The notes beneath the pieces are model-generated. The model saw only the letters and a program-made list of their open reading frames with translations, was not told the origin of the DNA and searched no databases. Shown here in pieces: positions 22,232-59,150 of a stretch of DNA of 64,000 nt. The position numbers were made by a program, and so were the translations under genes. The first letter of the stretch is position 1; every line of letters starts with the position of its first letter. Origin of the DNA: a virus; IMG/VR virus record IMGVR_UViG_3300008459_000008, positions 1 through 64,000 of that record; one strand, given 5' to 3'.

Positions 22232-22235
22232 TGTC

Positions 22236-22270: not shown

Positions 22271-22286
22271 ATAAAATCACCAAATC

Positions 22287-22294: not shown

Positions 22295-22299
22295 CATTT

Positions 22300-22854: not shown

Positions 22855-22882
22855 AATTTAGAAAAATATAATTTTTTCTTTT

Positions 22883-22890
22883 AATATATA
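22883..22890 (+). promoter_or_regulatory. AATATATA motif before the sheath gene
   Basis: Exact 8-mer, 27 nt before the ATG at 22918, with an A-rich leader. Confidence 0.6.
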
Positions 22891-22917
22891 CTTTTAAATA
22901 AAAAATATCGAACTAAT

Positions 22918-31141: not shown

Positions 31142-31172
31142 AAAAAAACCCTCCTAATTGGAGGGTTTTTTT
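31142..31172. terminator. Bidirectional rho-independent terminator
   Basis: Stem AAACCCTCC / GGAGGGTTT with flanking A and T runs, between convergent 30462-31127 and 31171-37881. Confidence 0.92.
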
Positions 31173-40837: not shown

Positions 40838-41139
40838 TGGATCATTTACTTTTATTTGAGGATTTTATCAACGAAGAGAAATCTTATAAAGGTTCTCACG
40901 GAGGACTAGACAAGTGGTTTAAAGAAAAGTGGGTTGATATTTCCAAAACAAATAAAGATGGTTCACACCCACCTTGTGGTAGATCCGATACTAATAAAGG
41001 TGGATATCCTAAATGTAGAAAAGTAAGAGTAGCTGCTAAAATGTCAAAGAAACAGAAAAAAGCATCAGTAGCTAGAAAAAGAAAAGCTGAGAGTGAAGGA
41101 TCAAAAGGTAGTAGTAGAAAACCAAACTATTCTAAATAA
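40837..41139 (+). CDS. Small basic tagged protein, DUF5872-like
   Basis: I use the ATG at 40837, which overlaps the previous stop, giving MDHLLLFEDFINEEKSYKG and the same tag as the neighbour, with F-I-N-E as a likely protease site. A TTG further upstream would lie inside the preceding gene. The rest, GGLDKWFKEKWVDISKTNKD, PCGRSDTNKGGYPKCRK and a Lys/Arg-rich tail, matches what I recall of the DUF5872 family of phages and giant viruses. Its 3' end overlaps the convergent gene 47 by 13 nt. Head packaging is inferred. Confidence 0.78.
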   Translation: MDHLLLFEDFINEEKSYKGSHGGLDKWFKEKWVDISKTNKDGSHPPCGRSDTNKGGYPKCRKVRVAAKMSKKQKKASVARKRKAESEGSKGSSRKPNYSK

Positions 41140-42254
41140 CCCTCGTCATATACTCTAGCAATCTCATTAAACTCTTGTAAAACACCATTTTTAATCTTCT
41201 CACTTTCATATTTCTGATTATTAATGTATTGTCTGATCAAATCAGTATATTCAAGTTGAATTGATGGCACAACACCATTATTTAATTCATCATCAGTGAT
41301 GTCATCTATGATAGATTTTACTTCTTCATCATTTTTTTCCAAAACTAAATCATCTATGTAGTCGACGGAAGCAAAGTTTCCAGATTCCAACATCAATTCA
41401 AGTTTCCTCCTTAATTTCCTATTGTTAATTAAAAGGGAATTAGAAATAAAAAGATCTATGTAGTCTTTTGTTGAAACATTTTCAAGTGTTTCAATATCTT
41501 CTTGTGTTCTGATGTATATTTTTTTATACCTTGGGGAAACATTATTTGGTATAAAATTTTCTTCATCTGTCAATGTATCGAGAATAAATATTCCCTTTTG
41601 ATTATTTGTATCATTTCTGTCCATTTCAAAATTATTACCCACAAAAGTAAAGTTTTTAGAAACTTGTAGGATATGTATATGTCCAGAATAAACATTTTTG
41701 TATCCTGAAAATTCCTCAACATCAATTTTATCATTGTTCTTATGTGCAACAGATGTTAAGTGCATCTTAGCACCATTCAAATCAGAGTGACAAAATAGAT
41801 AATCAGCACTTTTGAATTTTTTCAAGACATTAATCTGTTCTTGTTTTTTTTCTACCCACGGTAACATCAAAATTGATTTTCCACAGAAGTCAATCTTTGT
41901 GGGTTCTTCATAAACAGTAATATTTGGAATATATTTGTATAGTTTAACAGTATTTACATCATTAGATGCTTTAGTATATAAATCATGATTTCCTATTAAA
42001 ATATGTATAGGACAAATCTTTGACAATTTTTCAAGTAAATCTTGAGCGTAGTTTAAAATGTTAATAGGCACAACAGAACGATTATCAAATAAATCACCAC
42101 AATGAACGATGATATCATTTTCACTCAGTTCTTTTTGGACAAGAGGTAGTAGAAACTTCTCGAAATATTCTTGATGGACTTTAAACCATTTATCCACTGA
42201 ATTTGGATAACCTAAACCAAGATGTGTATCACCTATAATTAAAATTTTAGACAT
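41127..42254 (-). CDS. 47: Recombination endonuclease subunit gp47 (SbcD/Mre11-like)
   Basis: The 375-aa product carries the calcineurin-type phosphoesterase motifs in order: GDTHLG (Asp9, His11), HCGDLFDNR (Asp54), GNHDLY (Asn89, His90), LFCHSDLNG and YSGHIHIL. T4 gp47 pairs with gp46 to process DNA ends for recombination-dependent replication; no gene 46 is visible in the window. No AATATATA motif lies before the start, consistent with early expression. It is the only recombination gene seen here and stands beside late accessory genes. Confidence 0.93.
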   Translation of the reverse strand: MSKILIIGDTHLGLGYPNSVDKWFKVHQEYFEKFLLPLVQKELSENDIIVHCGDLFDNRSVVPINILNYAQDLLEKLSKICPIHILIGNHDLYTKASNDVNTVKLYKYIPNITVYEEPTKIDFCGKSILMLPWVEKKQEQINVLKKFKSADYLFCHSDLNGAKMHLTSVAHKNNDKIDVEEFSGYKNVYSGHIHILQVSKNFTFVGNNFEMDRNDTNNQKGIFILDTLTDEENFIPNNVSPRYKKIYIRTQEDIETLENVSTKDYIDLFISNSLLINNRKLRRKLELMLESGNFASVDYIDDLVLEKNDEEVKSIIDDITDDELNNGVVPSIQLEYTDLIRQYINNQKYESEKIKNGVLQEFNEIARVYDEGYLE

Positions 42255-42325: not shown

Positions 42326-42333
42326 GATATATA
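42326..42333 (+). promoter_or_regulatory. GATATATA late-type motif before the first metalloprotease
   Basis: One-base variant of the motif, 22 nt before the ATG at 42356, with a nearly pure A leader. Confidence 0.5.
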
Positions 42334-42355
42334 AAAAAAAAGAAAAAATTAAGTA

Positions 42356-45300
42356 ATGAAAAACATTTTATTATACCTTAGTTGTTTGTTAATTACATCC
42401 AACTTATTTTCTCAAGTAAAGATGGATGTTTGGAATAAAAATCCAAACACATCTCGTACTATAGCAAAAATAAATCCATCCAAATTACCAGTGTCATTCG
42501 AATCGACTTTACCAGATGGTTCAACAGAAATTTATGATAAATGGAACGTCTCTGACATTGAAGTAGAAACATCAACAAAGAAAAAATATACTTTCAAACC
42601 AAATGCTTATAAAGCAAGAAAAAATTTAAGTATTTTGACATATACTGAAAATGGTTGGGAAGGTATGTATCAATCACCTGATGGTTCATCTTATTCAATG
42701 AATCCCACCAGTGTTACTAAAGATGATACAAGACCACAAGGAACTCTAGGTGGTTGTGAAACGATGATTCCGGCAAATATTACGATAAACAAAATACCAG
42801 AGAGAACTCCACAAACATCAAATTTATTAACAAATACTCAATATTATGACCCTGCTATAACAATAAATAAAAATTTAACAGTGTATGCAGAGGTGACAAA
42901 TGACTTACACGTTTCACTAGGAAATAATTTAACAACAACACAAAACTGGGTCACTAATTTGTTTCTTGCAGTTTCCAATATTTACGCTCAGGAAGGTCTG
43001 ACAGTCACATTGAATAAAATTTATGTCTGGCAGTCTGTTGATCCGTATGGTTATCAAACCACAACAACTTCGTCATGTATCCTAGGGGGTGGGTCCCTTT
43101 ATGGATCAGCATTCTGTACCGGTTTTACTGATAATATTAAAAATAATCTACCAGTCAATCCAAATAACACCACGACTAATGTGACATCTCATTTCAAACA
43201 TCTATTACATGGTAGAGGTTCTTTAGGTGGTATAGCTTGGTTAGGAGGCAACTCTGATGGATACAATCCTGATACTTGGAATGTAGTCGGAACGAATTTA
43301 TCAACCGCAGTGTCAGGTTTCACGAGCACGACAATCCCTTCACAAGCTACCACAGGTTATAACTGGCCAGTATATGTCACCGCACATGAGATGGGACACA
43401 ATTGTGGTTCCTCACACACACAGTTTTGTAGGTGGAGAAATGATCAAGGTGCCTATTTAGGTAGATTAGATAGCTGTTATAAAGGAGAAAATTACAATTC
43501 TACGGGATATTGTACTCAAGAAACTGTAGAACCTTGTCCTGCCAACTGTACTCAAACCACATATCTAACCACTAAACCAAATAATAATGGTACAATAATG
43601 AGTTACTGTCATTTGAATGGTTCTGTAAACTTGTCATCAAGATTTGGTAAATATCCAAGATTTGCTATGAGAAGTTCTGTGGATAGGACCCCATACATAC
43701 TCAATCCAATCTCAACTTTACCAGAAGTCGCGTCCGCAAATGTCACTTCTATAACATCTTTTACAGCTACTTGTGGAGGGAATGTGACATTTGGTGGTGG
43801 TTCAGGTGTAACCGCAAGAGGAGTATGTTGGGCCCCTTACCCAACAGAGCCTACAACCGCCAACTCTAAAACCCTCGATGGTACAGGAACTGGATCATTC
43901 ACTAGTGTTATGACTAATTTGACACCAGCGGTGACTCTTTATGTAAGAGCGTATGCAACTAATTCTGCCGGAACTTCATACGGAGGATTAAGACTTTTCA
44001 CACCAGGTCCGCCAGTACCACCAGTTTTGACAACAGTGCCTATCAATACCGTAGGACAAACAACAGCAAAATCAGGTGGTACAATTTCAAGCGGTGGTGG
44101 GGGAACTATTACTAGAAAAGGTGTTGTTTGGAGTATATTCCCCATACCTGATAATACTACTATAAACTCGGAGATTGGTAATACGAATGATGGTACTGGA
44201 ACTGCGAACTTTACAAGTTCAATAACAGGCCTTACTCTTGGTGTAACTTATTACGTGAGAGCATATGCAGAAAATGAGTATGGTGTCGGTTGGGGTAGTG
44301 AATTAACATTCACAACTAGTACTGCTACTACACCATCATTAACAACCAATTCAGTTACTACATTCACAAATACAACAGCAACTATGGGTGGTAATGTAAC
44401 TGCGTCCGGTGGAGCCTCAGTTTCAAGACGAGGTGTTTGTTATGCGACTACTCAAAATCCCACAATCGCTAATACTGTAGTAAATATAGGTACTGGTACT
44501 GGCACTTTTTCACAAAGTGTGACTGGATTGAGTCAAGGTGTAACCTATTATGTGAGAGCCTTTGCAGAAAACCAAGCTGGTCTTAATTATGGCACTCAAG
44601 TTAGTTTCAAAACATTGACTATCCCATCTGTGTCAACCACCGCAGCTACTAATTTAGCAACAACATCATTTACTACAGGTGGTAATGTAACATCTGCCGG
44701 TGGTGGCAGTCTTACTGTTACTGCTAGAGGTGTTTGTTATTCTACCTCAACTAGTCCGTCTCTGACTAATGGTACTGTGTTATCAATTGGAACCGGAACT
44801 GGCACATTCACAACAAACATCACTGCATTGACACAAGGCGTCACATACTATGTGAGAGCTTATGCAACTAATACTTATGGTACTGCTTATGGAAGTCAAA
44901 TCACTGTCAAGACACTGACTGTACCAACAGTCACTACTACGGCTTCAACAGCTCTGTCTAAGACAGGTTTCACAACTGGTGGTAATGTAACTTCAGCAGG
45001 AGGTGGTACCTTATCAGTCACTGAAAGGGGTATTGTTTATTCAACAACGGTACAAGATCCAACTACATCCAATACAAAGGTTTTAGCAGCAACACCAACA
45101 GGTACGGGATCTTATACAATAAGTTTGACGGGTTTAACACCTGGTACAATTTATTATGTTAGAGCTTATGCAATAAATTCAGTAGGTACTGGTTACGGTT
45201 CTCGTATAACAGTGACCACTCCAAGTGAACCAGTATTATCAACAACTTCGATAACATCTATATCAACTACAACAGCATCATCTGGTGGAACAATTACATC

Positions 45301-47092
45301 AAGTTCGGGATCAACAGTTACTGCTAGGGGGGTTTGTTATTCCACATCTCCAAATCCTACGACCGCAAACACAACCACAAGTAATGGGACTGGAACAGGT
45401 ACATTTACAAGTAGTCTAACTGGACTATCTCCTTCTACTACATATTATGTAAAGGCATACGCAATTAACACCACTGGTACGGGTTATGGTAATGAATTAT
45501 CATTTACTACGACATCTTCTGGATCTTTTCCATCACTAACAACTACTGCAGCAAGTGGTATATCTCAAACTACTGCATCTTCTGGTGGAAATGTGACTGC
45601 TGATGGTGGTTCAACGGTCACCGCAAGAGGAATTTGTTACGCAACCACACAAAATCCAACCCTATCAAATACGGTAGTAAATAGTGGTTCGGGTACTGGT
45701 GTTTTTACAAGTTCATTATCTGGATTGACACCAAACACTACTTATTATATCAGAGCCTTTGCTACAAATTCAAATGGAACAAATTTCGGAACACAAGTTT
45801 CTTTTACGACTTTATCCTCAATTACATTTCCCATTTTAACAACAAATACAGTGACATCCATAACTTCAACATCAGCAACTTCTGGTGGTAATATTACAAG
45901 TGATGGTGGTGCTACTGTCACTGCAAGGGGGGTTTGTTATGCCACAACACAAAATCCAACGACCTCAAATACAGTGATTACAAGTGGTTCAGGTACTGGA
46001 ACATTTTCAGTGTCGATCACTGGTCTTACAAGTGGTGTAACCTATTATGTTAGATCTTATGCTACTAATTCAGCGGGCACAAATTATGGAACCCAACAAT
46101 CTTTTACAACTTTGGTCTTTCCTTCATTATCTACTACTTCCGCGACTAGTGTCACTTCTACAACTGCGACAACCGGAGGTAATGTAACTTCAGATGGTGG
46201 GGCTACAGTAACCGCTAGAGGTGTGTGTTATGCAACAACACAAACCCCAACCCTTTCAAATTCATTCACATCAAATGGTACCGGTGTGGGATCATTTACC
46301 AGTAGTTTAACTGGTCTAACTCAGAATACTACTTACTATGTAAGAGCTTATGCGACTAATTCAGTTGGTACAAATTATGGTAGTCAAATCAGTTTTACGA
46401 CTACTACTGGTGAGACTTTACCTACTGTAACGACTACCGCAGTGACTTCTGTGACTTCGAACAGTGCCTCTTCAGGTGGAAATGTTACAAGTTCTGGTTC
46501 ACAATCTGTAACATCTAGAGGAGTAGTCTGGTCGACCTCAATAGATCCTACAGTGTCATTGACTACAAAAACTGTCAATGGTAGTGGAACAGGTACTTTC
46601 ACTAGTTCAATAACATCACTATCAGCTTCTACTACTTATTATGTAAGAGCTTATGCTACGAGTTCTGTTGGTACTGGTTATGGTAATAATGTTCAATTCA
46701 CAACATCATCATCACCTACAGCATCTTGCACAGTGACTACTTTTGCACCATACCAATTAAATGGTTTTTGGAGATTTAAATGGAATTTGAATTCGAATTG
46801 TAACAGCTACACTGTCACTGTAAGTAGATATAATTATACGAGTTCTTCTGTCCAACCTCCAGTTGGAGCAACACCTGTTGCTACAGGTGCTAGATTGACC
46901 AACTATGTTCCCACGACCAATGAAATTTCTCAAGGATTTATTGACCAACAAATGAATCCCCAACCTGCTACCACTGGATATTGGTACAGTTTTGATGTAA
47001 AATGTAATGCAACTTCTTGTAGTGGTTCAAACACTACTAGATCACCTTACTTCTATGTAGGTACTACTCCAGCATCGACAATCGGTAAATAA
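42356..47092 (+). CDS. Exported metzincin metalloprotease with 10 Bacteroidota-type repeat modules (paralogue 1)
   Basis: The 1578-aa product has a signal peptide (MKNILLYLSCLLITSNLFSQ) and a propeptide-like region that starts VKMDVWNKNP. The metzincin catalytic domain has H-E-M-G-H-N-C-G-S-S-H (His344, Glu345, His348, His354) and a Met-turn IMSYCH (Met415), with paired cysteines. Ten modules of about 90 residues follow, each with T-x-x-A-T-S-G-G-N-V-T-S-x-G-G, RGVCYST, TYYVRAYATN and FTT. A C-terminal domain of about 115 residues (FWRFKWNLNSNCNSYTVTV onward) ends the protein. Predicted role: zinc endopeptidase exported by Sec, with the modules as a stalk or binding array. I see no standard T9SS sorting tail. 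The target is unknown. Confidence 0.88.
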   Translation: MKNILLYLSCLLITSNLFSQVKMDVWNKNPNTSRTIAKINPSKLPVSFESTLPDGSTEIYDKWNVSDIEVETSTKKKYTFKPNAYKARKNLSILTYTENGWEGMYQSPDGSSYSMNPTSVTKDDTRPQGTLGGCETMIPANITINKIPERTPQTSNLLTNTQYYDPAITINKNLTVYAEVTNDLHVSLGNNLTTTQNWVTNLFLAVSNIYAQEGLTVTLNKIYVWQSVDPYGYQTTTTSSCILGGGSLYGSAFCTGFTDNIKNNLPVNPNNTTTNVTSHFKHLLHGRGSLGGIAWLGGNSDGYNPDTWNVVGTNLSTAVSGFTSTTIPSQATTGYNWPVYVTAHEMGHNCGSSHTQFCRWRNDQGAYLGRLDSCYKGENYNSTGYCTQETVEPCPANCTQTTYLTTKPNNNGTIMSYCHLNGSVNLSSRFGKYPRFAMRSSVDRTPYILNPISTLPEVASANVTSITSFTATCGGNVTFGGGSGVTARGVCWAPYPTEPTTANSKTLDGTGTGSFTSVMTNLTPAVTLYVRAYATNSAGTSYGGLRLFTPGPPVPPVLTTVPINTVGQTTAKSGGTISSGGGGTITRKGVVWSIFPIPDNTTINSEIGNTNDGTGTANFTSSITGLTLGVTYYVRAYAENEYGVGWGSELTFTTSTATTPSLTTNSVTTFTNTTATMGGNVTASGGASVSRRGVCYATTQNPTIANTVVNIGTGTGTFSQSVTGLSQGVTYYVRAFAENQAGLNYGTQVSFKTLTIPSVSTTAATNLATTSFTTGGNVTSAGGGSLTVTARGVCYSTSTSPSLTNGTVLSIGTGTGTFTTNITALTQGVTYYVRAYATNTYGTAYGSQITVKTLTVPTVTTTASTALSKTGFTTGGNVTSAGGGTLSVTERGIVYSTTVQDPTTSNTKVLAATPTGTGSYTISLTGLTPGTIYYVRAYAINSVGTGYGSRITVTTPSEPVLSTTSITSISTTTASSGGTITSSSGSTVTARGVCYSTSPNPTTANTTTSNGTGTGTFTSSLTGLSPSTTYYVKAYAINTTGTGYGNELSFTTTSSGSFPSLTTTAASGISQTTASSGGNVTADGGSTVTARGICYATTQNPTLSNTVVNSGSGTGVFTSSLSGLTPNTTYYIRAFATNSNGTNFGTQVSFTTLSSITFPILTTNTVTSITSTSATSGGNITSDGGATVTARGVCYATTQNPTTSNTVITSGSGTGTFSVSITGLTSGVTYYVRSYATNSAGTNYGTQQSFTTLVFPSLSTTSATSVTSTTATTGGNVTSDGGATVTARGVCYATTQTPTLSNSFTSNGTGVGSFTSSLTGLTQNTTYYVRAYATNSVGTNYGSQISFTTTTGETLPTVTTTAVTSVTSNSASSGGNVTSSGSQSVTSRGVVWSTSIDPTVSLTTKTVNGSGTGTFTSSITSLSASTTYYVRAYATSSVGTGYGNNVQFTTSSSPTASCTVTTFAPYQLNGFWRFKWNLNSNCNSYTVTVSRYNYTSSSVQPPVGATPVATGARLTNYVPTTNEISQGFIDQQMNPQPATTGYWYSFDVKCNATSCSGSNTTRSPYFYVGTTPASTIGK
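43714..46725 (+). repeat. Ten beta-sandwich modules, paralogue 1
   Basis: Module starts are marked by S/T-G-G-N-V-T-S-x-G-G followed by RGV(C/V)(Y/W). The DNA copies are diverged, but the TYYVRAYATN segment is nearly constant. Confidence 0.85.
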
Positions 47093-47116
47093 GGAATTAT
47101 CCTCAAATAAAATTTG

Positions 47117-47124
47117 AATATATA
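47117..47124 (+). promoter_or_regulatory. AATATATA motif before the second metalloprotease
   Basis: Exact 8-mer between the first and second protease genes, 24 nt before the ATG at 47149. Confidence 0.6.
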
Positions 47125-47148
47125 CAAAAAAAACATATCAAATACAAA

Positions 47149-50100
47149 ATGAAAAAGTTTCTGTTCTTTCTAACAAGTTTGATTTTAACGTTGAATTCGT
47201 TTGGTCAAGTGAAATTGAACGTTTGGGACAAAAATCCAAATGTATCTAAAACAATCAATAATATAAAACCGAATAATTTACCAAAAACATTCGAGTCGTT
47301 GACACCGGATGGTGAAAAAACCATCTATGATAGATGGGAAGTTCCAGCTATAACAGTTGTGTCATCTAAAGGTAAGTCATACACAACAAAACCAGTGGCT
47401 TACAAATCAAGAAATGGATTTGGTGTCTTAACCTATTCCAAAAATGGGTGGCAGGGTTTACATTCTGGTAGGAGTGGTAAATTTTACTCAATGACACCTT
47501 CAAAGGTTAATGAGGACACATCGTCATTGAGATCAGTCGAAGAATATTGTGGAGGTGCAGGTTTACAACCAAGTAGCCAAAATATTGATCAAAAAAAAGA
47601 CACAAAAAAGACTCCGTCGGTCGGTAGATTAACTAATAGTGATTTTTATAATCCATTAGTACCAATCAATAAAACTTGTAGTGTTTATGCAGAAATTGCT
47701 TTTGATCTACATACTGCGTTGGGTGGAAATCTAGCTACAACTGAAGATTGGGTTACGAGACTTTTTCTAGGTATATCACAAATCTATTTGAATGAGGGTA
47801 TAACAATATACTTGAATAAAGTTTATGTTTGGGAAGCGTTAGACCCATATGGATATACCACACAAACAGGTACACAGGATGTAGTTAGAAGTAATGTACT
47901 CAATCTATTCGGTGGAAAAATTTTAAATAATCTTCCAACCAATCCAAATTCAAACTTTAAACATTTACTTACTAATGCTACTTATGGGGGAGTTGCTTAC
48001 TACGGACCATTCACACCATCAGATGGATACACTCCCGCAAGCGATTTATTCGGTCCGACCAGTAGAGTAGGTCTATCTAGTATGAGTAACAAACTAGAGA
48101 TAGCATCAACACCAACAGATTTAAGTGTTTACAACGATAGAAGATGGTGTTTACTTGTAGTTGCTCATGAGTTAGGTCATAATTTTGGTTCAAGACACAC
48201 ACAGTGGTGTGGTTGGAAAAGTGATGTTGGTACACTAATTGGTAGACTAGACTCTTGTACAAATGGTGAAACTTCAAATCCACTAGGACCTAATTGTGGA
48301 GCAACTAGCTACCCATCATATAAACCGACCATAATGAGTTATTGTCAGTTCCATCAGAATGCTCCTGCTTTTTCACAATTTTTATCCAATGGTTTTGGAA
48401 AGTATCCTAGATTTAGTATAAGGACTGGATTAGCCAATTCATCAGACATACCTTATACAAATGCTTCGATACCAACACTTACCACAACCCCAATAGTTAC
48501 CTATACCGCTACAACTGCTACATCGGGTGGTAACATCACAAGTGATGGTGGTGCTAATGTAACCTCGAGAGGGGTGTGTTGGTCAACATCACCAAACCCG
48601 ACAATATCGGGATCAAGAACTCTTGATGGTTCCTTTTCAGGGAGTTTTACTAGTAACATCACAGGTCTTTTAGGTGGAATAACTTATTACGTCAGAGCTT
48701 ATGCAACCAATCAAGCCGGAACTGCTTATGGTAATGAAGTTAGTTTCACTACATCAGTACCCCTTGTACCAACACTATCGTCAACAACCGCCGCAACATC
48801 TATCACCAATAACAGCGCAACATCAGGTGGTAATGTGAGTGCAAATGGTGGTGGTTCAATTACCGCTAGGGGTGTTTGTTGGTCAACTTCAACAACCCCA
48901 ACAATATCAAATTCGAGAACTAATGATGCTGTAGGTACAGGTACAGGCTCTTTCACAAGTAGTTTGACGGGTCTATCAGCTGGTACAACATACTATGTAA
49001 GATCTTACGCAACAAACAGTGCAGGAACGGGTTATGGACCACAGATAACATTCTCAACATTTTCCGCATCTTCAATACTTATAAACACTACTGCTCTTAC
49101 GGGATTAGCTCCCAAAAACGTGACGACGGGTGGAACAATTACTTCAGACGGAGGTTCTGCAGTGACAGCAAGAGGGGTGTGTTGGTCAACAACAAGCCCA
49201 CCAACTATATCGAATAGTAAGGTCAATACTGGAACAGGTACAGGAACGTATACAAGTACGGTTAGTGGATTATCTCCATCTACGACATATTATTTGAGGT
49301 CATTTGCTACAAACTCTAGTGGTACAACATATGGTAATGAACTCTCCTTTACAACCACATCTGTTCCAACATTCATTAATGGTACTCCTAGTTATGTCTC
49401 ACAAACATCTATAAAAACCAATTACACTATAAGTTTTCCAAATCAATCGTTTTCCAGCCATGCTTTGGGTGCTTCAACGACAAACCCACCGGATTCCTAT
49501 AATCTGAATTCATCATCTTATACTTTTAATTCTGTATCAGGAACATACCAATCACTTCTCGGTAGAAAATCGACTTCACAAGGTCTTCAACCTTCAACGA
49601 CATATTTTATTAGACCTATAGCAACAGACATATATGATAATTTCTATTACGGACCAATAACACAAGCTACTACGCTTGCTCCTTCTCTACCTGTCTGTAC
49701 TACGTATGTTGCAACTGAAGTTAGTACCCCGACTACAAATGCATCGACCGCTAAATTGAGTGGTAAAGTTACATCAATAGGTGGGGCTATCACAGAAAGA
49801 GGTTTTTGTTATTCTACAACACAAAATCCAACCACATCAAATAGTAAAGTTACTACAACAACTTGTTCATCGGATGATGATTGTTTATTATCATTTACAA
49901 ACACAGTGGCTAATTTTACTCCTGGTACTACCTACTATGTAAGATCCTACGCGATAAATCCAAGTGGTGTTGGTTATGGGAATCAAGTATCATTCACAAC
50001 ACCGATTTATGTCTATCAAGGACCACCAATAGTCGTTATTGACTCAATCAGAAACATCTCAACTGTTGGTGCTAAACTTTATGGTCGAGTGACAAACAGA

Positions 50101-53100
50101 GGGGGTTCTGATTGTGTATTGAGTAGTGGATGTAGAGGTGTAGTTATAAGTGCAGTCACAAATAGTCCATCGAGTGGATGTGGAGTAGATGCAAACTTTG
50201 ATCCTATATGTTGGTCATTTGTTGAAACTCCAAATGTTCAAAGTATAACAGGTGCTTTTGAAGTGGATTTCCAGGCAGGCAATCAATTGATGAAAGCAAA
50301 TACAACTTATTATGTTAGGGCATACGCCACTAATTTTTTCGCAAATAACCAAAACAATTACGGATACTCCGCAACAAGTACATTTAAAACATTATTAACT
50401 GGAACAACACCCCTACTTTATACCAACACTACTGTGAGTATCACAACCACGAGCGCAACAAGTGGTGGATTTATAACTTCACAGGGTGGTGCAAGTGTCA
50501 CTCAAAAGGGAGTAGTGTGGTCTACATCTCCAAATCCAACCACATCACTTTCTACAAAAACTTCTAATGGAACAGGCACTGCAGCTTATTCAAGTAATAT
50601 GACAGGTCTCACACCTAATACTTTATACTATGTAAGAGCATACGCTGTAAATAGTTTTGGAACATCTTATGGTCCTCAAGTACAATTCACTACAAATGCG
50701 AGTGCCGGACTAGCCACATTAACAACTACATCAGTCACAAATTTATCTACAACATCGGTGACATCAGGTGGTAACATTACAAACAGTGGTGGTACAAATG
50801 TTACTGCAAGAGGCGTATGTTACTCCACATCAACTAACCCAACAATAACTAACGGCACAGTTGTCGCGAGTGGTTCTGGTACAGGATCGTTCACAACAAA
50901 TATCACTGGATTGATTCAAGGTAATACTTATTTTTTAAGGGCTTTTGCTACAAATACTTCCGGTACAAGTTATGGTAATCAAGTACAAATCACTACACTA
51001 ACACTACCATCAATAACCACTACCGTCGCAAGTAATGTAACCAGCACAACAGTAATTACTGGTGGTAATGTAACATCGGATGGTGGTTCGACTATTACGG
51101 AAAGAGGTGTCTGTTATGAAACAACACAGAACCCAACTACAGGAAATTTTAAACTAGTATCAACTGGCACGACAGGTACGTTTACATCAAACATAACTGA
51201 CTTGACACCAGGCACAACTTACTATGTAAGGGCATACGCTATAAATTCTGTAGGAACTCAATACGGAACTCAAATAAGTTTTACTACCACCGCAGCACAA
51301 ACAGTACCCACTGTGACAACAACTAATCCAACATCTATCACAACTAACACGGTAAGTAGTGGTGGTACTGTTAGTTCGGATGGTAATTCCACGGTTTCAT
51401 CAAGAGGTGTTGTTTGGTCAACATCTTCGGGTCCAACAATCAATCTTACAACTAAAACGGTTAATGGTAGTGGAACTGGTAGTTTCACAAGTTCAGTTGG
51501 AGGTCTTTTACCGGGTGTACTTTACTACATAAGAGCTTATGCTACAAATTCAATTGGTACATCTTATGGTTCAGAATTCACATTCACCACTTTAACAACT
51601 ACACCCACATTATCTTCTACCATTACAGCATCAAATATAACTCAGACCTCAGCAATCTCAGGAGGAAACGTTACAAGTGATGGTGGGATAACAATTACTG
51701 AAAGGGGGGTATGTTGGTCAACATCAAGTAATCCGACTGTTAGTCTAAGTACAAAAACAATAGATGGATCTGGTGTTGGTAGTTTTGTTAGCGATCTCAC
51801 AGGATTATCTGCGAGTACTACTTATTATGTTAGAGCTTACGCTACTAATTCAAATGGTACTAGTTATGGAACACAAATATCATTTACTACTTTATCATCA
51901 ACTACGGTTCCTACTGTCACAACCACAACCGCCTCATCAATTACATTAACATCGGCCGTATCAGGTGGTAATGTGACTTCGGACGGAGGTACTGTTGTGA
52001 CTGTGAGGGGGGTAGTTTGGTCTACATCTCCTTCACCGACAGTATCTTTAACAACTAAAACTCAAGATGGTACAGGAATTGGTACGTTTACAAGCTCTAT
52101 GACCGGTTTAACCGCGTCAACAATTTACTATTATAGAGCATATGCGACTAACTCTCAAGGGACATCATATGGTAATCAACTATCATTTACCACCACTGCA
52201 AACTTACCTGTTGTGACAACAACAAACGTAAGTTCCGTCACACTCACAGGTGCTGTTTCTGGTGGTAACGTAACATCAACTGGTGGAGCAACAGTCACAG
52301 CAAGAGGGGTATGTTGGTCAACATCACCTAATCCTACAATATTGAACTCAAAGACAACTGATGGAAGTGGGACTGGTACATTTACAAGTACTATCTCTAA
52401 TTTATCACAAAATACAACCTATTATGTCAGAGCATACGCAACTAACTCATCTGGTACCGCATATGGGACAGAATTACAATTCATCACATCAAACACATCT
52501 TTACCAACTGTTAATACAACATCTGTCACATCTATAGATTTCACAAGTGCTATATCTGGAGGTAATGTGGTATCAGACGGTAATTCAACAGTGACATCGA
52601 GAGGTGTGGTGTGGTCTGAAACACAAAATCCAACCCTTAGTAATTCATTTACAGTAGATGATAATGGTACTGGTACATTTACAAGTAATCTCACAAATTT
52701 GACTGCCGGCGTCACATATTATGTAAGAGCGTATGCAACAAATTCCTTAGGTACATCATATGGAAACCAAGTATCATTCGCAACAATACCTGGTCAAGCA
52801 CCAGAGGTATCAACAAACATTATAAATAACGTCACATCCACTAATGCTGAAGTTGTTTATAGTATAAACTCAATAGGTGGTGGAACATTATCATTAAAAG
52901 GTATTTGTTATTCTACATCTCCGAACCCCACAACATCTAATCAGAAGGTAGAAGAAGTCTGTGCAATTGAGACCCCATGTGAGATCGGTCAATATACAAT
53001 TACTTTCATAAATCCATTGTCTCCAAATGTGACTTATTATGTAAGAGCCTACGCAACAAGTGAATTTGGAACCTCATATGGAGAAGAACTTTCCTTCACA

Positions 53101-54360
53101 ACATTGATTAATTTCCCAACACTCACAACCACATCTATATCTGAAATAACATCAACTACAGCTAGTAGTGGTGGTACTATAGTAGACGTGGGTGGTGGGT
53201 CTATAAGTGCGAAGGGAGTTTGTTGGTCAACTTCATCAAATCCTACACTTAATAATTCATTCACAACTGATGGAAGTGGTCCGAATTTCTTCTCTAGTCA
53301 AATTACAGGATTATTACCTGGTGTGTTATACTATGTAAGATCATACGCCACTAATCAAACTGGTACAAATTATGGAAATCAAGTTACGTTCACTACAATA
53401 TCAGTGTCTGTACCTACACTAACAACAAATAGCGTCACTTCAATTACTAACTCATCTGCTATATCCGGTGGAAATATCACATCAGATGGGGGGTCTACTA
53501 TAACAGCAAGGGGAGTTGTTTATTCCACATCACAAAATCCAACCTTATCAAATAATAGAACGTTTGACGGTTCGGGAATTGGTTCGTTTAGTTCTTCTAT
53601 AACTGGTTTATCACCTGGTGTTACCTATTATGTTAGATCATATGCGACCACATCGGGTGGTACAGGATACGGACAACAAAATATTTTTACAACTTCTGGT
53701 TCAATTCCAACTGTATCTACCACCACAATTACAAACATTAGCTCGTCAGGTGCGACGTCTGGTGGTAATGTAACATCGTCTGGCGGATCTTCAATCACTT
53801 CTAGAGGGGTTGTTTGGTCAACATCTCCAAATCCAACTGTATCTTTATCAACCAAGACATCAAATGGAACAGGAACAGGAATATTTACAAGTACAATAAT
53901 CGGATTATCCCCATCAACACTTTATTATGTTAGATCTTACGCTACAAACAGTACAGGTACTGCATATGGTACAGAGTTAACATTTACAACTTCATTGAGT
54001 GGTGGTGGAAGTTGTGCGATTGGTGGTCTAACAGTTACAAGAGTTAATAATGCTTGGAACTTTACATTTAACATAAATCCAAATTGTACAAGTTATACGG
54101 TGAACGTGTGTAGATATTCAAATACTAACCCAGCAATACCACCAACTGCAGGTCAAACACCAGTAGCATGTGCGGTTAGAAATAACATGACTAGTTATGT
54201 ACCAACTTCTTCGGAAATAAGCGCTGGTGTTATAACAAGAGTGATGAGTCCACCACCAGCCAATACCGGTGTGTGGTACAGTGTTGACGTAACTTGTAAT
54301 GGTACTTGTACAGGTACCAAAACTACTAGGTCTGCATATTTCTATAATCCAATCCCATAA
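47149..54360 (+). CDS. Exported metzincin metalloprotease with about 18 repeat modules (paralogue 2)
   Basis: The 2403-aa product is the largest protein in the window. It has a signal peptide (MKKFLFFLTSLILTLNSFGQ), a VKLNVWDKNPN propeptide start like paralogue 1, and the active site H-E-L-G-H-N-F-G-S-R-H (His340, His344, His350) with Met-turn IMSYCQ (Met396). About 18 modules follow, of which some in the first half are divergent (modules 4-6), and then a C-terminal domain (AWNFTFNINPNCTSYTVNVC) shared with its neighbours. The repeats are intact in frame over 5.5 kb, which argues for selection. Expression is likely late, from its own motif, and it is probably cotranscribed with paralogue 3 (15-nt gap). 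Confidence 0.88.
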   Translation: MKKFLFFLTSLILTLNSFGQVKLNVWDKNPNVSKTINNIKPNNLPKTFESLTPDGEKTIYDRWEVPAITVVSSKGKSYTTKPVAYKSRNGFGVLTYSKNGWQGLHSGRSGKFYSMTPSKVNEDTSSLRSVEEYCGGAGLQPSSQNIDQKKDTKKTPSVGRLTNSDFYNPLVPINKTCSVYAEIAFDLHTALGGNLATTEDWVTRLFLGISQIYLNEGITIYLNKVYVWEALDPYGYTTQTGTQDVVRSNVLNLFGGKILNNLPTNPNSNFKHLLTNATYGGVAYYGPFTPSDGYTPASDLFGPTSRVGLSSMSNKLEIASTPTDLSVYNDRRWCLLVVAHELGHNFGSRHTQWCGWKSDVGTLIGRLDSCTNGETSNPLGPNCGATSYPSYKPTIMSYCQFHQNAPAFSQFLSNGFGKYPRFSIRTGLANSSDIPYTNASIPTLTTTPIVTYTATTATSGGNITSDGGANVTSRGVCWSTSPNPTISGSRTLDGSFSGSFTSNITGLLGGITYYVRAYATNQAGTAYGNEVSFTTSVPLVPTLSSTTAATSITNNSATSGGNVSANGGGSITARGVCWSTSTTPTISNSRTNDAVGTGTGSFTSSLTGLSAGTTYYVRSYATNSAGTGYGPQITFSTFSASSILINTTALTGLAPKNVTTGGTITSDGGSAVTARGVCWSTTSPPTISNSKVNTGTGTGTYTSTVSGLSPSTTYYLRSFATNSSGTTYGNELSFTTTSVPTFINGTPSYVSQTSIKTNYTISFPNQSFSSHALGASTTNPPDSYNLNSSSYTFNSVSGTYQSLLGRKSTSQGLQPSTTYFIRPIATDIYDNFYYGPITQATTLAPSLPVCTTYVATEVSTPTTNASTAKLSGKVTSIGGAITERGFCYSTTQNPTTSNSKVTTTTCSSDDDCLLSFTNTVANFTPGTTYYVRSYAINPSGVGYGNQVSFTTPIYVYQGPPIVVIDSIRNISTVGAKLYGRVTNRGGSDCVLSSGCRGVVISAVTNSPSSGCGVDANFDPICWSFVETPNVQSITGAFEVDFQAGNQLMKANTTYYVRAYATNFFANNQNNYGYSATSTFKTLLTGTTPLLYTNTTVSITTTSATSGGFITSQGGASVTQKGVVWSTSPNPTTSLSTKTSNGTGTAAYSSNMTGLTPNTLYYVRAYAVNSFGTSYGPQVQFTTNASAGLATLTTTSVTNLSTTSVTSGGNITNSGGTNVTARGVCYSTSTNPTITNGTVVASGSGTGSFTTNITGLIQGNTYFLRAFATNTSGTSYGNQVQITTLTLPSITTTVASNVTSTTVITGGNVTSDGGSTITERGVCYETTQNPTTGNFKLVSTGTTGTFTSNITDLTPGTTYYVRAYAINSVGTQYGTQISFTTTAAQTVPTVTTTNPTSITTNTVSSGGTVSSDGNSTVSSRGVVWSTSSGPTINLTTKTVNGSGTGSFTSSVGGLLPGVLYYIRAYATNSIGTSYGSEFTFTTLTTTPTLSSTITASNITQTSAISGGNVTSDGGITITERGVCWSTSSNPTVSLSTKTIDGSGVGSFVSDLTGLSASTTYYVRAYATNSNGTSYGTQISFTTLSSTTVPTVTTTTASSITLTSAVSGGNVTSDGGTVVTVRGVVWSTSPSPTVSLTTKTQDGTGIGTFTSSMTGLTASTIYYYRAYATNSQGTSYGNQLSFTTTANLPVVTTTNVSSVTLTGAVSGGNVTSTGGATVTARGVCWSTSPNPTILNSKTTDGSGTGTFTSTISNLSQNTTYYVRAYATNSSGTAYGTELQFITSNTSLPTVNTTSVTSIDFTSAISGGNVVSDGNSTVTSRGVVWSETQNPTLSNSFTVDDNGTGTFTSNLTNLTAGVTYYVRAYATNSLGTSYGNQVSFATIPGQAPEVSTNIINNVTSTNAEVVYSINSIGGGTLSLKGICYSTSPNPTTSNQKVEEVCAIETPCEIGQYTITFINPLSPNVTYYVRAYATSEFGTSYGEELSFTTLINFPTLTTTSISEITSTTASSGGTIVDVGGGSISAKGVCWSTSSNPTLNNSFTTDGSGPNFFSSQITGLLPGVLYYVRSYATNQTGTNYGNQVTFTTISVSVPTLTTNSVTSITNSSAISGGNITSDGGSTITARGVVYSTSQNPTLSNNRTFDGSGIGSFSSSITGLSPGVTYYVRSYATTSGGTGYGQQNIFTTSGSIPTVSTTTITNISSSGATSGGNVTSSGGSSITSRGVVWSTSPNPTVSLSTKTSNGTGTGIFTSTIIGLSPSTLYYVRSYATNSTGTAYGTELTFTTSLSGGGSCAIGGLTVTRVNNAWNFTFNINPNCTSYTVNVCRYSNTNPAIPPTAGQTPVACAVRNNMTSYVPTSSEISAGVITRVMSPPPANTGVWYSVDVTCNGTCTGTKTTRSAYFYNPIP
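48466..53995 (+). repeat. About 18 beta-sandwich modules, paralogue 2
   Basis: Counted from S-G-G-N-(V/I)-T landmarks. Modules 4 and 6 lack the standard landmark, and module 15 has a Cys-pair insertion (EEVCAIETPCE). Confidence 0.82.
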
Positions 54361-54375
54361 AAAAACTAAAATTGA

Positions 54376-57300
54376 ATGAAAAAGTTTCTTCTACTAATTC
54401 TATTGACACTAACTTCCGTTCTGTCCTTTGGGCAGACGGAAGTTGATATTTGGAAAAAATCCAACAAAAAAATATTTTCTCAAAGAAAATTTACATTTCC
54501 AAAAACATTTGTTTCCAAATCACCATCAGGTAAACAATTGACTTACCAACGTGTGGAACATCCATATATCAAGATAGAAACATCTAGTGGTAAGAAATGG
54601 ACAAAGAAACCAATTATTTATCAATCTACTTCAGATTTTGGTGTAATAACATATGACGGTAAAAATTGGAGTGGTATACATACAGAGGATGGATACAATG
54701 TAAGTAACTTGACGAAAGAAAAGGTTACTAATGTCAAAATGGATGCTGAAAAATTCAGTTTTGGTGAAGGAGATGTTTTACTCGCGCCCACAAAATCAAA
54801 TAAAAAGATAGGAAGGTCAATCCAAAACAATCCAAATTTTTATGATCCTTACATCAGAATTAATAAAACTTGTGGAGTTTATGTGGAAGTAACAAATGAT
54901 TTATATAAATTTTGGGGTTCAGATACTGGTAGAGTAACACAGTATGTTACAACTATACTAACAAATGTTATAGCTCTATATGACAGAGAGGGTATAAATG
55001 TCACATTGAATAAAATTTTTGTTTGGGACACACCTGATCCTTATGGAAACCCATTCGATAATACACAGTATCTAAATCAATTTACAGATAACATCAACAA
55101 AAATATACCAACTACACCAGAATCTCATTTTAAACACTTATTACACAATAAGAATTTGGGTGGTATAGCTTGGATAAATGGTGAATCAGATGGATACATC
55201 ACATCTGCAAATCTTGATCCATACTATACCTGTGCGGTCACAGGAATTGGTTCAAATATAGTAGTTAATTCTAATGTCACTTATTCTTGGCCAGTAATGT
55301 GTTTCACACATGAAATGGGACACAATCTTGGTTCAAAACATACTCATTGGTGTGGATGGAAAAATGAATCCAATCAAGCCATAGGTAGAATTGACAGTTG
55401 TTACAGAGGAGAAAGCACAGATGGGCCAGATAATTGCACGTCATCTACTTATACAGTAGTTAAATCAAACAACAGAGGCTCTGTAATGAGTTATTGTCAT
55501 CTGAATGGTGCCATAAGTTTCACAACTGGATTTGGTAGATTACCAAGATATTCAATAAGATCTAATCTAAATGATGCACCAGAGGTGCCATTTGACACAC
55601 CACAAGTTCCAACAGTAACTATTGATACTGGTACTCAAAAAACAGCTACTTCTGTTTTAATGACTGGAAATATTGTAATGACTGGAGAAACTATAATTCA
55701 AGAAAGAGGTTTCGTGTGGACAAATTCACAAATCATAATGCCTACATTGAATTTGACAACTAAAATTGCGGTCGGCTCAGGTAGTGGAACATTTCAATCA
55801 CAAATTACAACATTAACTGCAGGAGGACGTTTTTGGTTTAGGGCATATGCGAAAAATGCTACTGGAGTTTACTATAGTGATACAGTAAGGGTACAATTGG
55901 TCTCAACGTCTGTACCAAGTCTGACGACAAATCCTGTAACTCTAATTACAAATATATCGGCTCAAACTGGTGGCACATACATATCGATTGGTAATATTTC
56001 AATTCAAGAAAGAGGTATAGTGTACAGCACTTCCAATCAACTTCCTACCGTAGATGACACTAAAGTGATCACACCATCACCAAATAACACAAACTTCGTT
56101 CAGAATTTGACGGGTCTAACTCCCAACACCACTTATTACATAAGGGCTTTTGCTAGAAATAGTCCGTCAATTTTTTCTTACGGAAATGTACAAACTTTTC
56201 AAACTTTACCAAATGAGTCGGTATCTTTTGGAGTACCTTTAGCTACCGTCAATAGTAGTACACAAATAACCCCTAGTGTTTTTATCACATCTACTGGTAA
56301 TGGTGGGGTCATATCTGAAAGAGGTTTCTACATAGGAACTACACCAAATCCTGAAAATAACATACTTAATAAAAGAGTTGCGGTTTTGGGACAAGCCACT
56401 ACTATGGCATTAGCTATAATAAATCTAACACCCAATACACTTTATTATATCAAAGGTTTTGCGACCACTCAATTTGGTACTTTTTATACACCCGAATTCA
56501 CATCCACTACACTTAGGAGTATACTAGTGATGGATGAAGTTAGTGGAATAGAAGCTACTAAAGCTACGTTCAAATATACTATTGGTCCAACTACATCTAT
56601 CATACCATCATCAGGTGTTTTGTTATCAACCAACATAACACCAACTAGAGCAAACAGTCAGTTCTTTTTTCAATCGACATATGTTGGACAAGGACAAGGC
56701 ACAATTGTTGGACAAGACCTACTTCCAAATACGACTTACTATGCTAGAGGGGTAATACCATTTACTTCTGGTGATTTCTTTTCAACTAATATACTACAGT
56801 TTCAAACTACGGGAGTTGTTGGTACTCCATCGGTTAGTACTTTGGGATCACCCACAAAAACAAAAAATTCGATTGTAGTTAGAGGTGAAGTTGTGTCAAC
56901 TGGATCATCACCTGTATTTAACAGGGGAATTTGTTATTCAACCGCACCAAATCCTACTATAAATAATTCAGTTATTGTATCAGGTCAGGGGATTGGTCAA
57001 TATATTGTAACTATAAACAATTTAGTACCTAGTACAATATATTATATTAGAGCGTATGCTACCAACAAGTCCGGCACTTCTTATGGTTCAGAAATTAATA
57101 TTTCAACCAGTGGTGATATCCCAACAATCATAACAAACTCAATCAACAACATTTCATTAACCACTGCTAATGGAGGTGGTGAAATAACTCTTTCGGGTGG
57201 ACGTGTTGTTACATCTAGGGGTGTAATTTGGTCAACCAATCCCAATCCAACAATAAATTTGTCTACAAAAACAGTAGATGGTAGCGGAATTGGCATATTC

Positions 57301-58392
57301 ACAAGTGCAATCACTGGATTGGTACAGAATACGAAATATTATGTCAGAGCTTATGCCATAAATGATAATGGGGTTGGATATGGTAATGAAATTAATTTCA
57401 CTACTTTGCCTAGTCCAACTACAGCAAATGTAATAACAAATATTGTCACAAATATTTTACCAACATCAGCGACATCCGGTGGTAATGTTACTTATGATGG
57501 TGGAACACCTGTGGTATCCAAGGGGATTTGTTGGTCGACTTCTCAGAACCCAACAATCGACCTTACCACAAAAACTATGGACGGTAGTGGATTGGGTCCC
57601 TTCGTTAGTCAGATATCCAACTTGACCCTCGGCAACACTTACTATGTAAGGGCTTACGCTGTTAATTCTACTGGAACTAGTTATGGTGTACAGTATTCAT
57701 TTACAACTTCGTTAGGCATCCCAATCGTTTTGACTAATCCGGTAAGTGGGATTACAATAACATCAGCGAGTGTTGGAGGGAATGTAACTTCTTCTGGAAA
57801 TGCACCTGTAACTCAGAGAGGAATTTGTTGGTCAATAAATCAGAACCCAACAACAAGTGATAATATAGTACCAAGTGGAAACGGAACTGGAGTTTTTTCC
57901 GGAAATATATTAGGACTATCCTCCTCCACAACATATTTTATCAGAGCTTATGCTACAAACTCTTTGGGAACTTCCTATGGATCACAGATTTCATTTACCA
58001 CTTCACCACAATCTGGAGGTACTTGTCAAATATCTGGACTAACATCCTATCTAAATCAAACGAACAAATGGGAATTTAATTACAATATAAATTTAAAATG
58101 TGCTACATATTCTGTAAATGTGTGTAGGTATAATTACACAGATCCTAATAGTCAACCACCTTCAAATTTACAACCAACAAGTTGTGGAGTAAGAAATAGC
58201 ATGAATGCTTATGTACCAACAATCCAAGAAACAAATAATGGGTACATCCAAAAAGAAATGATACCTCAACCGACGGCTTCGACAAAATCTGGTTTTGGTG
58301 GATATTGGTACAGCATAGATGTCAGATGTTCATCACAAAATTGTTTGGGATCAAATTTGACTAAATACTATTTTTATGTACCAGGTATGTAA
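54376..58392 (+). CDS. Exported metzincin metalloprotease with about 8 repeat modules (paralogue 3)
   Basis: The 1338-aa product has a signal peptide (MKKFLLLILLTLTSVLSFGQ), a shortened TEVDIWKKSNKK propeptide start and the active site H-E-M-G-H-N-L-G-S-K-H (His312, His316, His322) with Met-turn VMSYCH (Met371). About eight modules follow, the first four strongly diverged. The shared C-terminal domain (NKWEFNYNINLKCATYSVNV) ends YYFYVPGM. It is the most diverged of the three in its stalk, while the protease domain keeps every expected residue. It follows paralogue 2 by 15 nt with no promoter motif in between, so the two probably share a message. Confidence 0.87.
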   Translation: MKKFLLLILLTLTSVLSFGQTEVDIWKKSNKKIFSQRKFTFPKTFVSKSPSGKQLTYQRVEHPYIKIETSSGKKWTKKPIIYQSTSDFGVITYDGKNWSGIHTEDGYNVSNLTKEKVTNVKMDAEKFSFGEGDVLLAPTKSNKKIGRSIQNNPNFYDPYIRINKTCGVYVEVTNDLYKFWGSDTGRVTQYVTTILTNVIALYDREGINVTLNKIFVWDTPDPYGNPFDNTQYLNQFTDNINKNIPTTPESHFKHLLHNKNLGGIAWINGESDGYITSANLDPYYTCAVTGIGSNIVVNSNVTYSWPVMCFTHEMGHNLGSKHTHWCGWKNESNQAIGRIDSCYRGESTDGPDNCTSSTYTVVKSNNRGSVMSYCHLNGAISFTTGFGRLPRYSIRSNLNDAPEVPFDTPQVPTVTIDTGTQKTATSVLMTGNIVMTGETIIQERGFVWTNSQIIMPTLNLTTKIAVGSGSGTFQSQITTLTAGGRFWFRAYAKNATGVYYSDTVRVQLVSTSVPSLTTNPVTLITNISAQTGGTYISIGNISIQERGIVYSTSNQLPTVDDTKVITPSPNNTNFVQNLTGLTPNTTYYIRAFARNSPSIFSYGNVQTFQTLPNESVSFGVPLATVNSSTQITPSVFITSTGNGGVISERGFYIGTTPNPENNILNKRVAVLGQATTMALAIINLTPNTLYYIKGFATTQFGTFYTPEFTSTTLRSILVMDEVSGIEATKATFKYTIGPTTSIIPSSGVLLSTNITPTRANSQFFFQSTYVGQGQGTIVGQDLLPNTTYYARGVIPFTSGDFFSTNILQFQTTGVVGTPSVSTLGSPTKTKNSIVVRGEVVSTGSSPVFNRGICYSTAPNPTINNSVIVSGQGIGQYIVTINNLVPSTIYYIRAYATNKSGTSYGSEINISTSGDIPTIITNSINNISLTTANGGGEITLSGGRVVTSRGVIWSTNPNPTINLSTKTVDGSGIGIFTSAITGLVQNTKYYVRAYAINDNGVGYGNEINFTTLPSPTTANVITNIVTNILPTSATSGGNVTYDGGTPVVSKGICWSTSQNPTIDLTTKTMDGSGLGPFVSQISNLTLGNTYYVRAYAVNSTGTSYGVQYSFTTSLGIPIVLTNPVSGITITSASVGGNVTSSGNAPVTQRGICWSINQNPTTSDNIVPSGNGTGVFSGNILGLSSSTTYFIRAYATNSLGTSYGSQISFTTSPQSGGTCQISGLTSYLNQTNKWEFNYNINLKCATYSVNVCRYNYTDPNSQPPSNLQPTSCGVRNSMNAYVPTIQETNNGYIQKEMIPQPTASTKSGFGGYWYSIDVRCSSQNCLGSNLTKYYFYVPGM
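55600..58010 (+). repeat. About eight beta-sandwich modules, paralogue 3
   Basis: Modules 1-4 keep only the overall strand pattern; modules 5-8 carry the usual RG(I/V)(C/I)(Y/W)S and Y-(Y/F)-(V/I)-R-A-Y-A landmarks. Confidence 0.75.
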
Positions 58393-58413: not shown

Positions 58414-58421
58414 AATATATA
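58414..58421 (+). promoter_or_regulatory. AATATATA motif, distal, before the tail tube gene
   Basis: Exact 8-mer, 73 nt before the ATG at 58495, directly after the third protease gene. Confidence 0.5.
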
Positions 58422-58450
58422 AATAGATTAATAGGAATAAAAACCGAAAT

Positions 58451-58458
58451 AATATATA
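58451..58458 (+). promoter_or_regulatory. AATATATA motif, proximal, before the tail tube gene
   Basis: Second exact 8-mer, 36 nt before the ATG. A doubled motif may suit the high demand for tube protein. Confidence 0.55.
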
Positions 58459-58494
58459 ATTAAACAAAAAGATTTAAAAAAATATAAATAAGTT

Positions 58495-59118
58495 ATGGCA
58501 CTTCCACATTTTACCCAACTTCAAATGACCGGTTCACCTGGTGGACCTGGGTCTAGACCACAAGAACCAGTATATTTGAACCTGTTTGAGTGTACATTTG
58601 TCCTTCCAACAATTGTTGCAGCTCGTTATGGAACAGATGCTGGACCGGGTCTACTTTTACAACAAGCTACAAAAATAACTTTTGACGTAACTCCATCATT
58701 GGAATCAGTTGAACAGAAATTCAAATATTCTGGTAGAGCTTTTATGAAAACCCCAACAAAAACCACTACAGACTTAACTCTTGGATTCAATGTTAACGTT
58801 AATGATACTGGTAGTATGGAGACTTGGAACATTCTTAAATCATGGTATGATTTAGTCTGGAACTCTCAAAACGGATATTTGCACTACAAAGCAGATATTG
58901 TTGGAACTATCATCGTTAACCAACATGATAAAAAGGGGGTTGTTTTAAGGAGATTAACCTTTCAGAACTGTCAAATCAAATCAATTGGTAATCCAGCCTT
59001 AACTTGGGATGGTGGTGAAATTTGGAATTTTGAATCAGCATTTATAGCTGATTACTGGATTGATGAATACATCGATCAGAACTTCACAATTGTGCCGCCA
59101 CTTGTATCAGGATATTAA
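58495..59118 (+). CDS. 19: Tail tube protein gp19
   Basis: The 207-aa product matches T4-type tube protein: NLFECTFVLPTIV near the N-terminus, QATKITFDVTPSLESVEQKF, TWNILKSWYDLVWNSQNGYL (T4 gp19 has a similar W-Y-x-x-I/V-x-x-x-x-x-G block), LRRLTFQNCQIKSIGNPALT and a C-terminal ADYWIDEYID. It stacks as hexamers inside the sheath. In T4 it lies beside gene 18; here gene 18 is about 32 kb away and the protease cluster sits immediately upstream. A terminator follows 2 nt after the stop. Confidence 0.9.
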   Translation: MALPHFTQLQMTGSPGGPGSRPQEPVYLNLFECTFVLPTIVAARYGTDAGPGLLLQQATKITFDVTPSLESVEQKFKYSGRAFMKTPTKTTTDLTLGFNVNVNDTGSMETWNILKSWYDLVWNSQNGYLHYKADIVGTIIVNQHDKKGVVLRRLTFQNCQIKSIGNPALTWDGGEIWNFESAFIADYWIDEYIDQNFTIVPPLVSGY

Positions 59119-59120
59119 TG

Positions 59121-59150
59121 AAAAAAGGACCTTAAAAAGGTCCTTTTTTA
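59121..59150. terminator. Rho-independent terminator overlapping a minus-strand stop
   Basis: Stem AAAAAAGGACCTT / AAGGTCCTTTTTT between gene 19 and the convergent minus-strand genes. The last codons and stop of the 59132-59278 reading frame lie inside the hairpin. Confidence 0.9.

Follow-up and report, generated by a model that had tools for sequence, protein, structure and literature searches.

The stretch of DNA analysed here, hereafter the window, comprises positions 1 to 64,000 of the IMG/VR virus record IMGVR_UViG_3300008459_000008, a fragment of 106,239 bp. Positions 42356 to 58392 are occupied by three intact open reading frames (ORFs) on the plus strand, which encode the very large proteins P1 (1578 aa; 42356-47092), P2 (2403 aa; 47149-54360) and P3 (1338 aa; 54376-58392). 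All three proteins have the same domain order, running from a signal peptide and a segment of about 145 residues, the probable propeptide, through a reprolysin/adamalysin domain and a stalk of fibronectin type III (fn3)-like modules to a C-terminal domain (CTD) of about 115 aa. From sequence comparison, the cluster appears to be a three-gene array of phage-encoded M12B metalloproteases, predicted to be exported and carried by a huge phage of the Mahaphage group that infects Bacteroidota.

The zinc site HExxHxxGxxH is present in each protein, as HEMGHNCGSSH in P1 (residue 344; 43385-43417), HELGHNFGSRH in P2 (residue 340; 48166-48198) and HEMGHNLGSKH in P3 (residue 312; 55309-55341), and is followed in each by an MSY Met-turn. 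Pfam searches gave matches above the curated cut-off to Reprolysin_3 in P1 and to Reprolysin_5 in P2 (2.1e-10) and P3 (3.1e-15). The key residues of the zinc site are invariant in the alignment of phage homologues, and the active-site residues and Cys are conserved. A profile built from 15 homologues matched solved adamalysins (M12B) at 3.5e-17 in a PDB profile search. The predicted protease fold, from a model of moderate confidence with a predicted local distance difference test score (pLDDT) of 72.8, also matched adamalysins (Foldseek, 1.3e-10), and the model places the zinc site of P3 in an adamalysin fold. By zinc site, Met-turn, profile and fold, P1-P3 are metzincins of the adamalysin/M12B type, and proteolytic activity is predicted.

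The stalks contain 10 modules in P1 (43724-46705), 18 in P2 (48475-53991) and 8 in P3 (55612-58002), as counted with a module hidden Markov model. DNA identity between the module copies reaches only about 60-75%, indicating that they are old and derive neither from recent duplication nor from an artefact of repeat collapse or repeat assembly. The CTDs (P1, 46727-47059; P2, 54013-54354; P3, 58033-58386) are 44-54% identical among the three paralogues. The CTD model is confident (pLDDT 88.6) and comprises seven main strands and a helix, with an Ig/fn3-like appearance in P3. An original prediction for this DNA had placed three ORFs of these sizes at these coordinates, with intact metzincin sites, 10, 18 and 8 modules and a common C-terminal domain; all of this was confirmed, the module count exactly. 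It had also supposed that the modules were taken from a host surface protein, a reading left without support by their occurrence in other phage metzincins and in phage-type proteins without signal peptides. In the 735-kb phage LR756501 the module is found 7 and 3 times in such signal-peptide-free proteins (L276, 53293-61840), suggesting that it is a phage building block. It is also found in a PHROG labelled minor tail protein.

The CTD was found by profile search in 6 of 15 records, all six of which are phage contigs. Among bacteria it was detected in one of 396 genomes drawn from the phylum Bacteroidota, the one being the search centre, and in four of 391 genomes of an order draw; these counts are lower bounds, since only the top candidates of each genome were scored. 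The CTD is therefore almost absent from Bacteroidota genomes, at about 0-1% as a lower bound. In IMG/VR, the query A2 gave no CTD match and the query A5 returned only the three already known contigs. In contig G007, five consecutive genes with signal peptides all end in the CTD (L127-L128, G007 8703-24462); they comprise one intact protease, one apparently decayed protease with VHHIAIKLG at the expected zinc site (read by eye) and three proteins without a protease site. One of the five CTD proteins is 2491 aa long and has apparently lost its zinc site. Since the CTD is found on proteases and non-proteases of G007 alike, it seems to act as a transferable terminal module of phage proteins that are exported. 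An assignment of the CTD as a type A sorting domain of the type IX secretion system (T9SS) was considered and rejected, for it showed neither a TIGR04183 or PF18962 match nor profile similarity.

The N-termini of P1-P3 possess strong hydrophobic cores, followed by predicted cleavage junctions LFS-QVK in P1 (signal peptide at 42356-42412), SFG-QVK in P2 and SFG-QTE in P3. The Sec signal peptides claimed in the original prediction are thus supported, with Gln after Ser or Gly at each predicted cleavage site. A junction of Ser, Gly or Ala followed by Gln is also seen in most phage homologues, two of which are lipoprotein-like. Most signal peptidase I (SPI) substrates of Bacteroidetes start with Gln, which is turned to pyroglutamate, the so-called Q-rule (PMC5837995). 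The Gln at position +1 of P1-P3 matches this rule and supports both export and a Bacteroidota host; P1-P3 are accordingly predicted to be Sec/SPI-exported proteins of the Bacteroidota type. In three other phage contigs (G797, G803 and G813), metzincins end in a T9SS type A sorting domain above the NCBIfam cut-off, indicating that surface delivery is used by phages. A terminase gene is also present in G797 and G813, and G813 may be a provirus or a host fragment.

The motif [AG]ATATATA[AC] lies within 60 nt upstream of 18 of the 37 window ORFs, compared with 0.9% of random 60-nt stretches; across the 64 kb there are only 11 occurrences per strand. It precedes the sheath, portal, head protease and tail tube genes as well as P1 and P2 at similar spacing, and probably serves as late promoter in these phages as a group. 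At the 18 genes the motif sits about 13-44 nt before the ORF start. Within the cluster it was found only at the starts of P1 (GATATATAA, plus strand, 42326-42334, 30 nt upstream) and P2 (AATATATAC, plus strand, 47117-47125, 32 nt upstream). P3 has no motif of its own and starts 15 nt after P2, and is therefore probably co-transcribed with P2. The tail tube gene is preceded by two copies of AATATATAA on the plus strand, at 58414-58422 and at 58451-58459, the second lying 44 nt upstream of the gene. The original claim of phage promoter motifs at these genes is upheld, but the motif is not that of T4; a promoter in common with the structural genes suggests late timing for P1-P3. The T4 late motif TATAAATA was rejected as the window promoter, as it occurs at chance level (14 seen against 11.7 expected), and [AG]ATATATA[AC] takes its place.

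The cluster lies between a divergent gene for an SbcD/gp47-like nuclease subunit on the left (41127-42254, minus strand; phrog_100, 1.5e-58) and the gp19-like tail tube gene on the right (58495-59118, plus strand; phrog_45, 5.7e-13; 66% identical in the contig G010), the position between genes 47 and 19 that had been claimed for it. A terminator-like hairpin with a T run, read by eye, follows the tail tube gene (59123-59149, plus strand). The space between gp47 and the tail tube gene is 16.2 kb in the window, and in G010 the two genes are divergent neighbours only 178 bp apart. In 84 viral locus rows holding both genes, some contigs being counted twice and the two genes having the same direction in some rows, the start-to-start distance is 118-5801 bp. 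Neither the metzincin motif nor the CTD nor the module was detected at this site in any of 100 loci, on the stretches read. Between the window and G010 the tail tube leader has kept some similarity, with a score that about 1% of shuffles reach, and no significant alignment was obtained for the left leader on the gp47 side. In the relatives L230, L232, L198, L239, L249 and L176 the same gap holds homing-endonuclease-like genes, with weak LAGLIDADG and DUF723 matches, indicating that the gap is an insertion-prone spot.

In a tree built from 104 protease domains, P1-P3 group with proteins of G010, G011 and G795 and two of G001 in a clade made up of phage sequences only (support 99/98). Of 35 contigs, 14 were found to hold a terminase, and for the others IMG/VR is the basis for calling them viral. 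The next larger supported clade (99/93) comprises 17 rows, 14 from phages and three from hosts, and the three host proteins carry the same CTD as P1-P3. The label 'phage' requires about 11 changes on the tree, suggesting repeated exchange of these enzymes between phages and hosts. Protease identity among the phage copies is about 31-46%, and the best segments in bacterial genomes are mostly about 33% identical or less. The member of the clade in G010, a single metzincin gene, lies at another location (L103). No protease relatives of P1, P3 or two sister proteins were found in 50,697 phage records. A viral search with P3 as a single query also returned none, and an alignment query was needed to find the relatives. 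Tandem metzincin-type proteins of 592, 672 and at least 1819 aa without signal peptides were observed in L168 (7479-16763) and L167, the zinc site having been inspected in the 592-aa protein only; these are possibly virion proteins. The nearest protease relatives of P1-P3 are phage genes and not members of one host locus, so that the host-locus result named in the original prediction as its refutation did not appear; P1-P3 are phage genes rather than stray host DNA, as first proposed; the phage promoters and the insertion site, a conserved phage intergenic region empty in relatives, lead to the same assignment.

Over 97% of its length, the terminase of the window shares 64% identity with those of two uncultured phages of 642 and 634 kb, and it is 44% identical to that of a 636-kb phage (LR756502, LR745206 and LR756504: 64, 64 and 44%). 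These 634-642-kb genomes belong to the Mahaphage clade, the largest members of which have predicted Bacteroidetes hosts (PMC7162821). Similar to the window, they possess related terminases and the common structural genes, partly rearranged; unlike the window, they lack the protease cluster, and neither a reprolysin above the cut-off nor the CTD was detected anywhere in the three genomes. Across the whole window, the 464-kb contig G010 is collinear, with identities of 90% for the portal, 85% for the head protease, 77% for the terminase and 89% for gp47. From the terminase identity and the structural genes in common, the phage is probably a relative of the 634-642-kb Mahaphages. The initial label 'T4-type phage' is correct only loosely, in that the structural genes resemble those of T4, but undersells a phage that groups with huge phages. 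The literature searched contained no description of this phage family.

An endolysin gene adjoins an exported metzincin in four other phage lineages. In G007, a phage lysozyme (PF00959, GH24-type) lies 92 bp downstream of the CTD protease. An Amidase_2 gene is found one gene downstream of the metzincin in G003 and G006, and an M15-type peptidase/endolysin about 1 kb from it in G004 and its relative G008 (family tested in G004). In the G806 group, 2-4 bp separate the end of a GH19 endolysin gene (phrog_181, 9.6e-64, tested in L158) from the start of the protease gene that follows it. These gene neighbourhoods of other phages are suggestive of a role in lysis, and give support to the earlier proposal that the enzymes aid lysis or spread. 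We propose, with a probability of roughly one half, that P1-P3 are late exported proteases which attack the infected cell at the proteins of its envelope or surface and thereby promote lysis and release. The proteins would be synthesised late, at the time of the structural genes, pass the inner membrane via the host Sec system and be activated through removal of the propeptide. The CTD would then hold them at the envelope or cell surface, with the stalk extending the protease away from its anchor. As the cell dies, cleavage of its envelope, surface or matrix proteins would help the endolysin to complete lysis, and the progeny might be freed from receptors and debris.

Several observations weigh against this proposal. 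The endolysin linkage concerns about 4 of about 19 metzincin-bearing phage lineages, a hand count without formal test that is suggestive only. In the window itself no endolysin or holin was recognised beside the cluster, the neighbours being gp47 and the tail tube gene. The relatives LR756502, LR745206 and LR756504 manage without such proteases, indicating that the function is dispensable. As for the supposed anchor, the fold search with the CTD gave only weak Ig/fn3-like matches (best E 0.014) and no functional hint, and comparison with TIGR04183 and PF18962 gave no match at E 0.1 or 0.01 and an hhalign probability of 0.07%.

Alternatively, P1-P3 might be receptor-destroying surface proteases for superinfection exclusion, shaving surface proteins and blocking adsorption of other phages, or of the phage's progeny, to the infected cell and debris while leaving lysis unaffected. 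The export signals, long stalks and candidate anchoring CTD would suit such a cell-surface enzyme, sister proteases of phages bear T9SS domains, which suggests that they act at the surface, and several paralogues could cover several receptors. This role is nevertheless doubtful, because it leaves the endolysin linkage in four lineages unexplained and because promoters in common with the structural genes would be late for exclusion. Virion-associated enzymes, in which the CTD would attach to the virion, either once the cell has lysed or by a route other than Sec, and the protease would degrade the matrix or surface layer of the host infected next, would fit the adjoining tail tube gene, the module in virion-type LR756501 proteins and in the minor tail PHROG, and the metzincin domains without signal peptides in other phages (L166, L168-L170). 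However, all three proteins have Sec signal peptides with Q-rule sites, which would take them out of the cytoplasm, the site of virion assembly, where a tail fibre or tailspike would be expected to stay, lacking a signal peptide. An association with the virion is thus unlikely, and the same holds for the earlier idea that the proteins coat it.

Release into the medium, where the enzymes would degrade biofilm matrix or environmental protein and thereby aid dispersal or feed neighbouring hosts, resembles what was proposed for the zinc metallopeptidase of the flavophage Molly (PMC8776804), and the secreted Mtz/Tim of Listeria acts on neighbouring cells (PMC8235301). We consider such auxiliary digestion quite unlikely for P1-P3, as a free enzyme would need neither a candidate anchoring CTD nor a very long stalk. 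The higher G+C of the cluster (0.35-0.41, compared with about 0.30 for many neighbouring genes) and its absence from this site in every relative might also reflect recent host DNA or misassembly, that is, a Bacteroidota surface-protein cluster joined to phage DNA in error. This explanation is highly improbable given the phage promoters inside the cluster, the phage genes in several independent contigs that are its nearest relatives, the near absence of the CTD from Bacteroidota genomes and the partly conserved tail tube leader.

Beyond the role in lysis and release proposed above for P1-P3, the CTD might be a new anchoring or secretion signal, so that Bacteroidota phages would have an exoproteome directed by a C-terminal tag specific to phages, with the CTD arrays forming an outer stage of lysis. 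We put this forward only tentatively and think it rather less than probable. The CTD stands last on Q-rule-exported proteases, on a decayed protease and on non-proteases, and the multi-gene CTD arrays, three genes here and five in G007 beside the lysozyme, would act outside the cytoplasm. If true, this would add a stage of lysis absent from the holin-endolysin-spanin scheme. The CTD also gives a means to find further exported phage proteins.

The usual view is that phages use virion enzymes against the surface of the host, and that they open the cell by holins, endolysins and spanins. The exported giant protease array and its endolysin-side relatives suggest that many Bacteroidota phages send enzymes out via host secretion before lysis. 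How phages open the complex Bacteroidota envelope is poorly known, and the P1-P3 genes are concrete, testable candidates. Exported metzincins linked to phages have been described previously. Listeria monocytogenes Mtz is a phage-derived secreted metzincin with a TIMP-like partner, Tim, and raises phage-mediated lysis and virion release; with Tim and an intact active site it turns growth arrest into culture-wide lysis (PMC8235301). By description, Mtz is similar to P1-P3 in being a phage-associated, Sec-exported metzincin with HExxHxxGxxH and a Met-turn, but it is small, has the partner Tim and belongs to a Gram-positive system, and no fn3 stalk, CTD or array is described for it. For the Maribacter phage Molly, an exported zinc-dependent metallopeptidase has been suggested to break down extracellular matrix (PMC8776804); it is likened to P1-P3, again by description, as an exported (lipoprotein) metallopeptidase of a Bacteroidota phage. 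While phage-linked exported metzincins are thus already known from Mtz and Molly, the CTD, the multi-gene array and the size are new. Zinc site, Met-turn, profile and fold are common to P1-P3 and to ADAMs, snake venom metalloproteases and reprolysin-like secreted proteases of Bacteroidota, whereas known M12B peptidases have other accessory domains and P1-P3 are phage-borne. T9SS type A cargo proteases of Bacteroidota have the Q-rule signal peptide in common with P1-P3 and, going by the CTD model and its weak fold matches, possibly also a terminal Ig-like domain, but differ from P1-P3 in the sorting domain that the window CTD does not match.

Other features of the window were also observed. Near the terminase gene, two adjacent small genes (13442-14383, minus strand) look like a spanin-type pair. 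The first encodes 143 aa with an N-terminal transmembrane segment and a likely coiled coil, and the second, which is conserved in LR756502 and LR745206, encodes 168 aa that combine a signal peptide of the Q-rule type with a hydrophobic stretch at the C-terminal end. The tail-sheath gene (22918-26838) is very large, encoding 1306 aa with the sheath domain only at the C-terminus, and is present as two tandem copies in G010 (269821-278319). An ORF of 2236 aa (31171-37881, minus strand), to which no confident family could be assigned, has counterparts of about 45% identity in LR756502 and LR745206. In these huge phages, many small proteins that are unrelated to one another (L124, L103, L237, L245) start with MKxLxxFxxF(xE), which is perhaps a common targeting or prohead propeptide.

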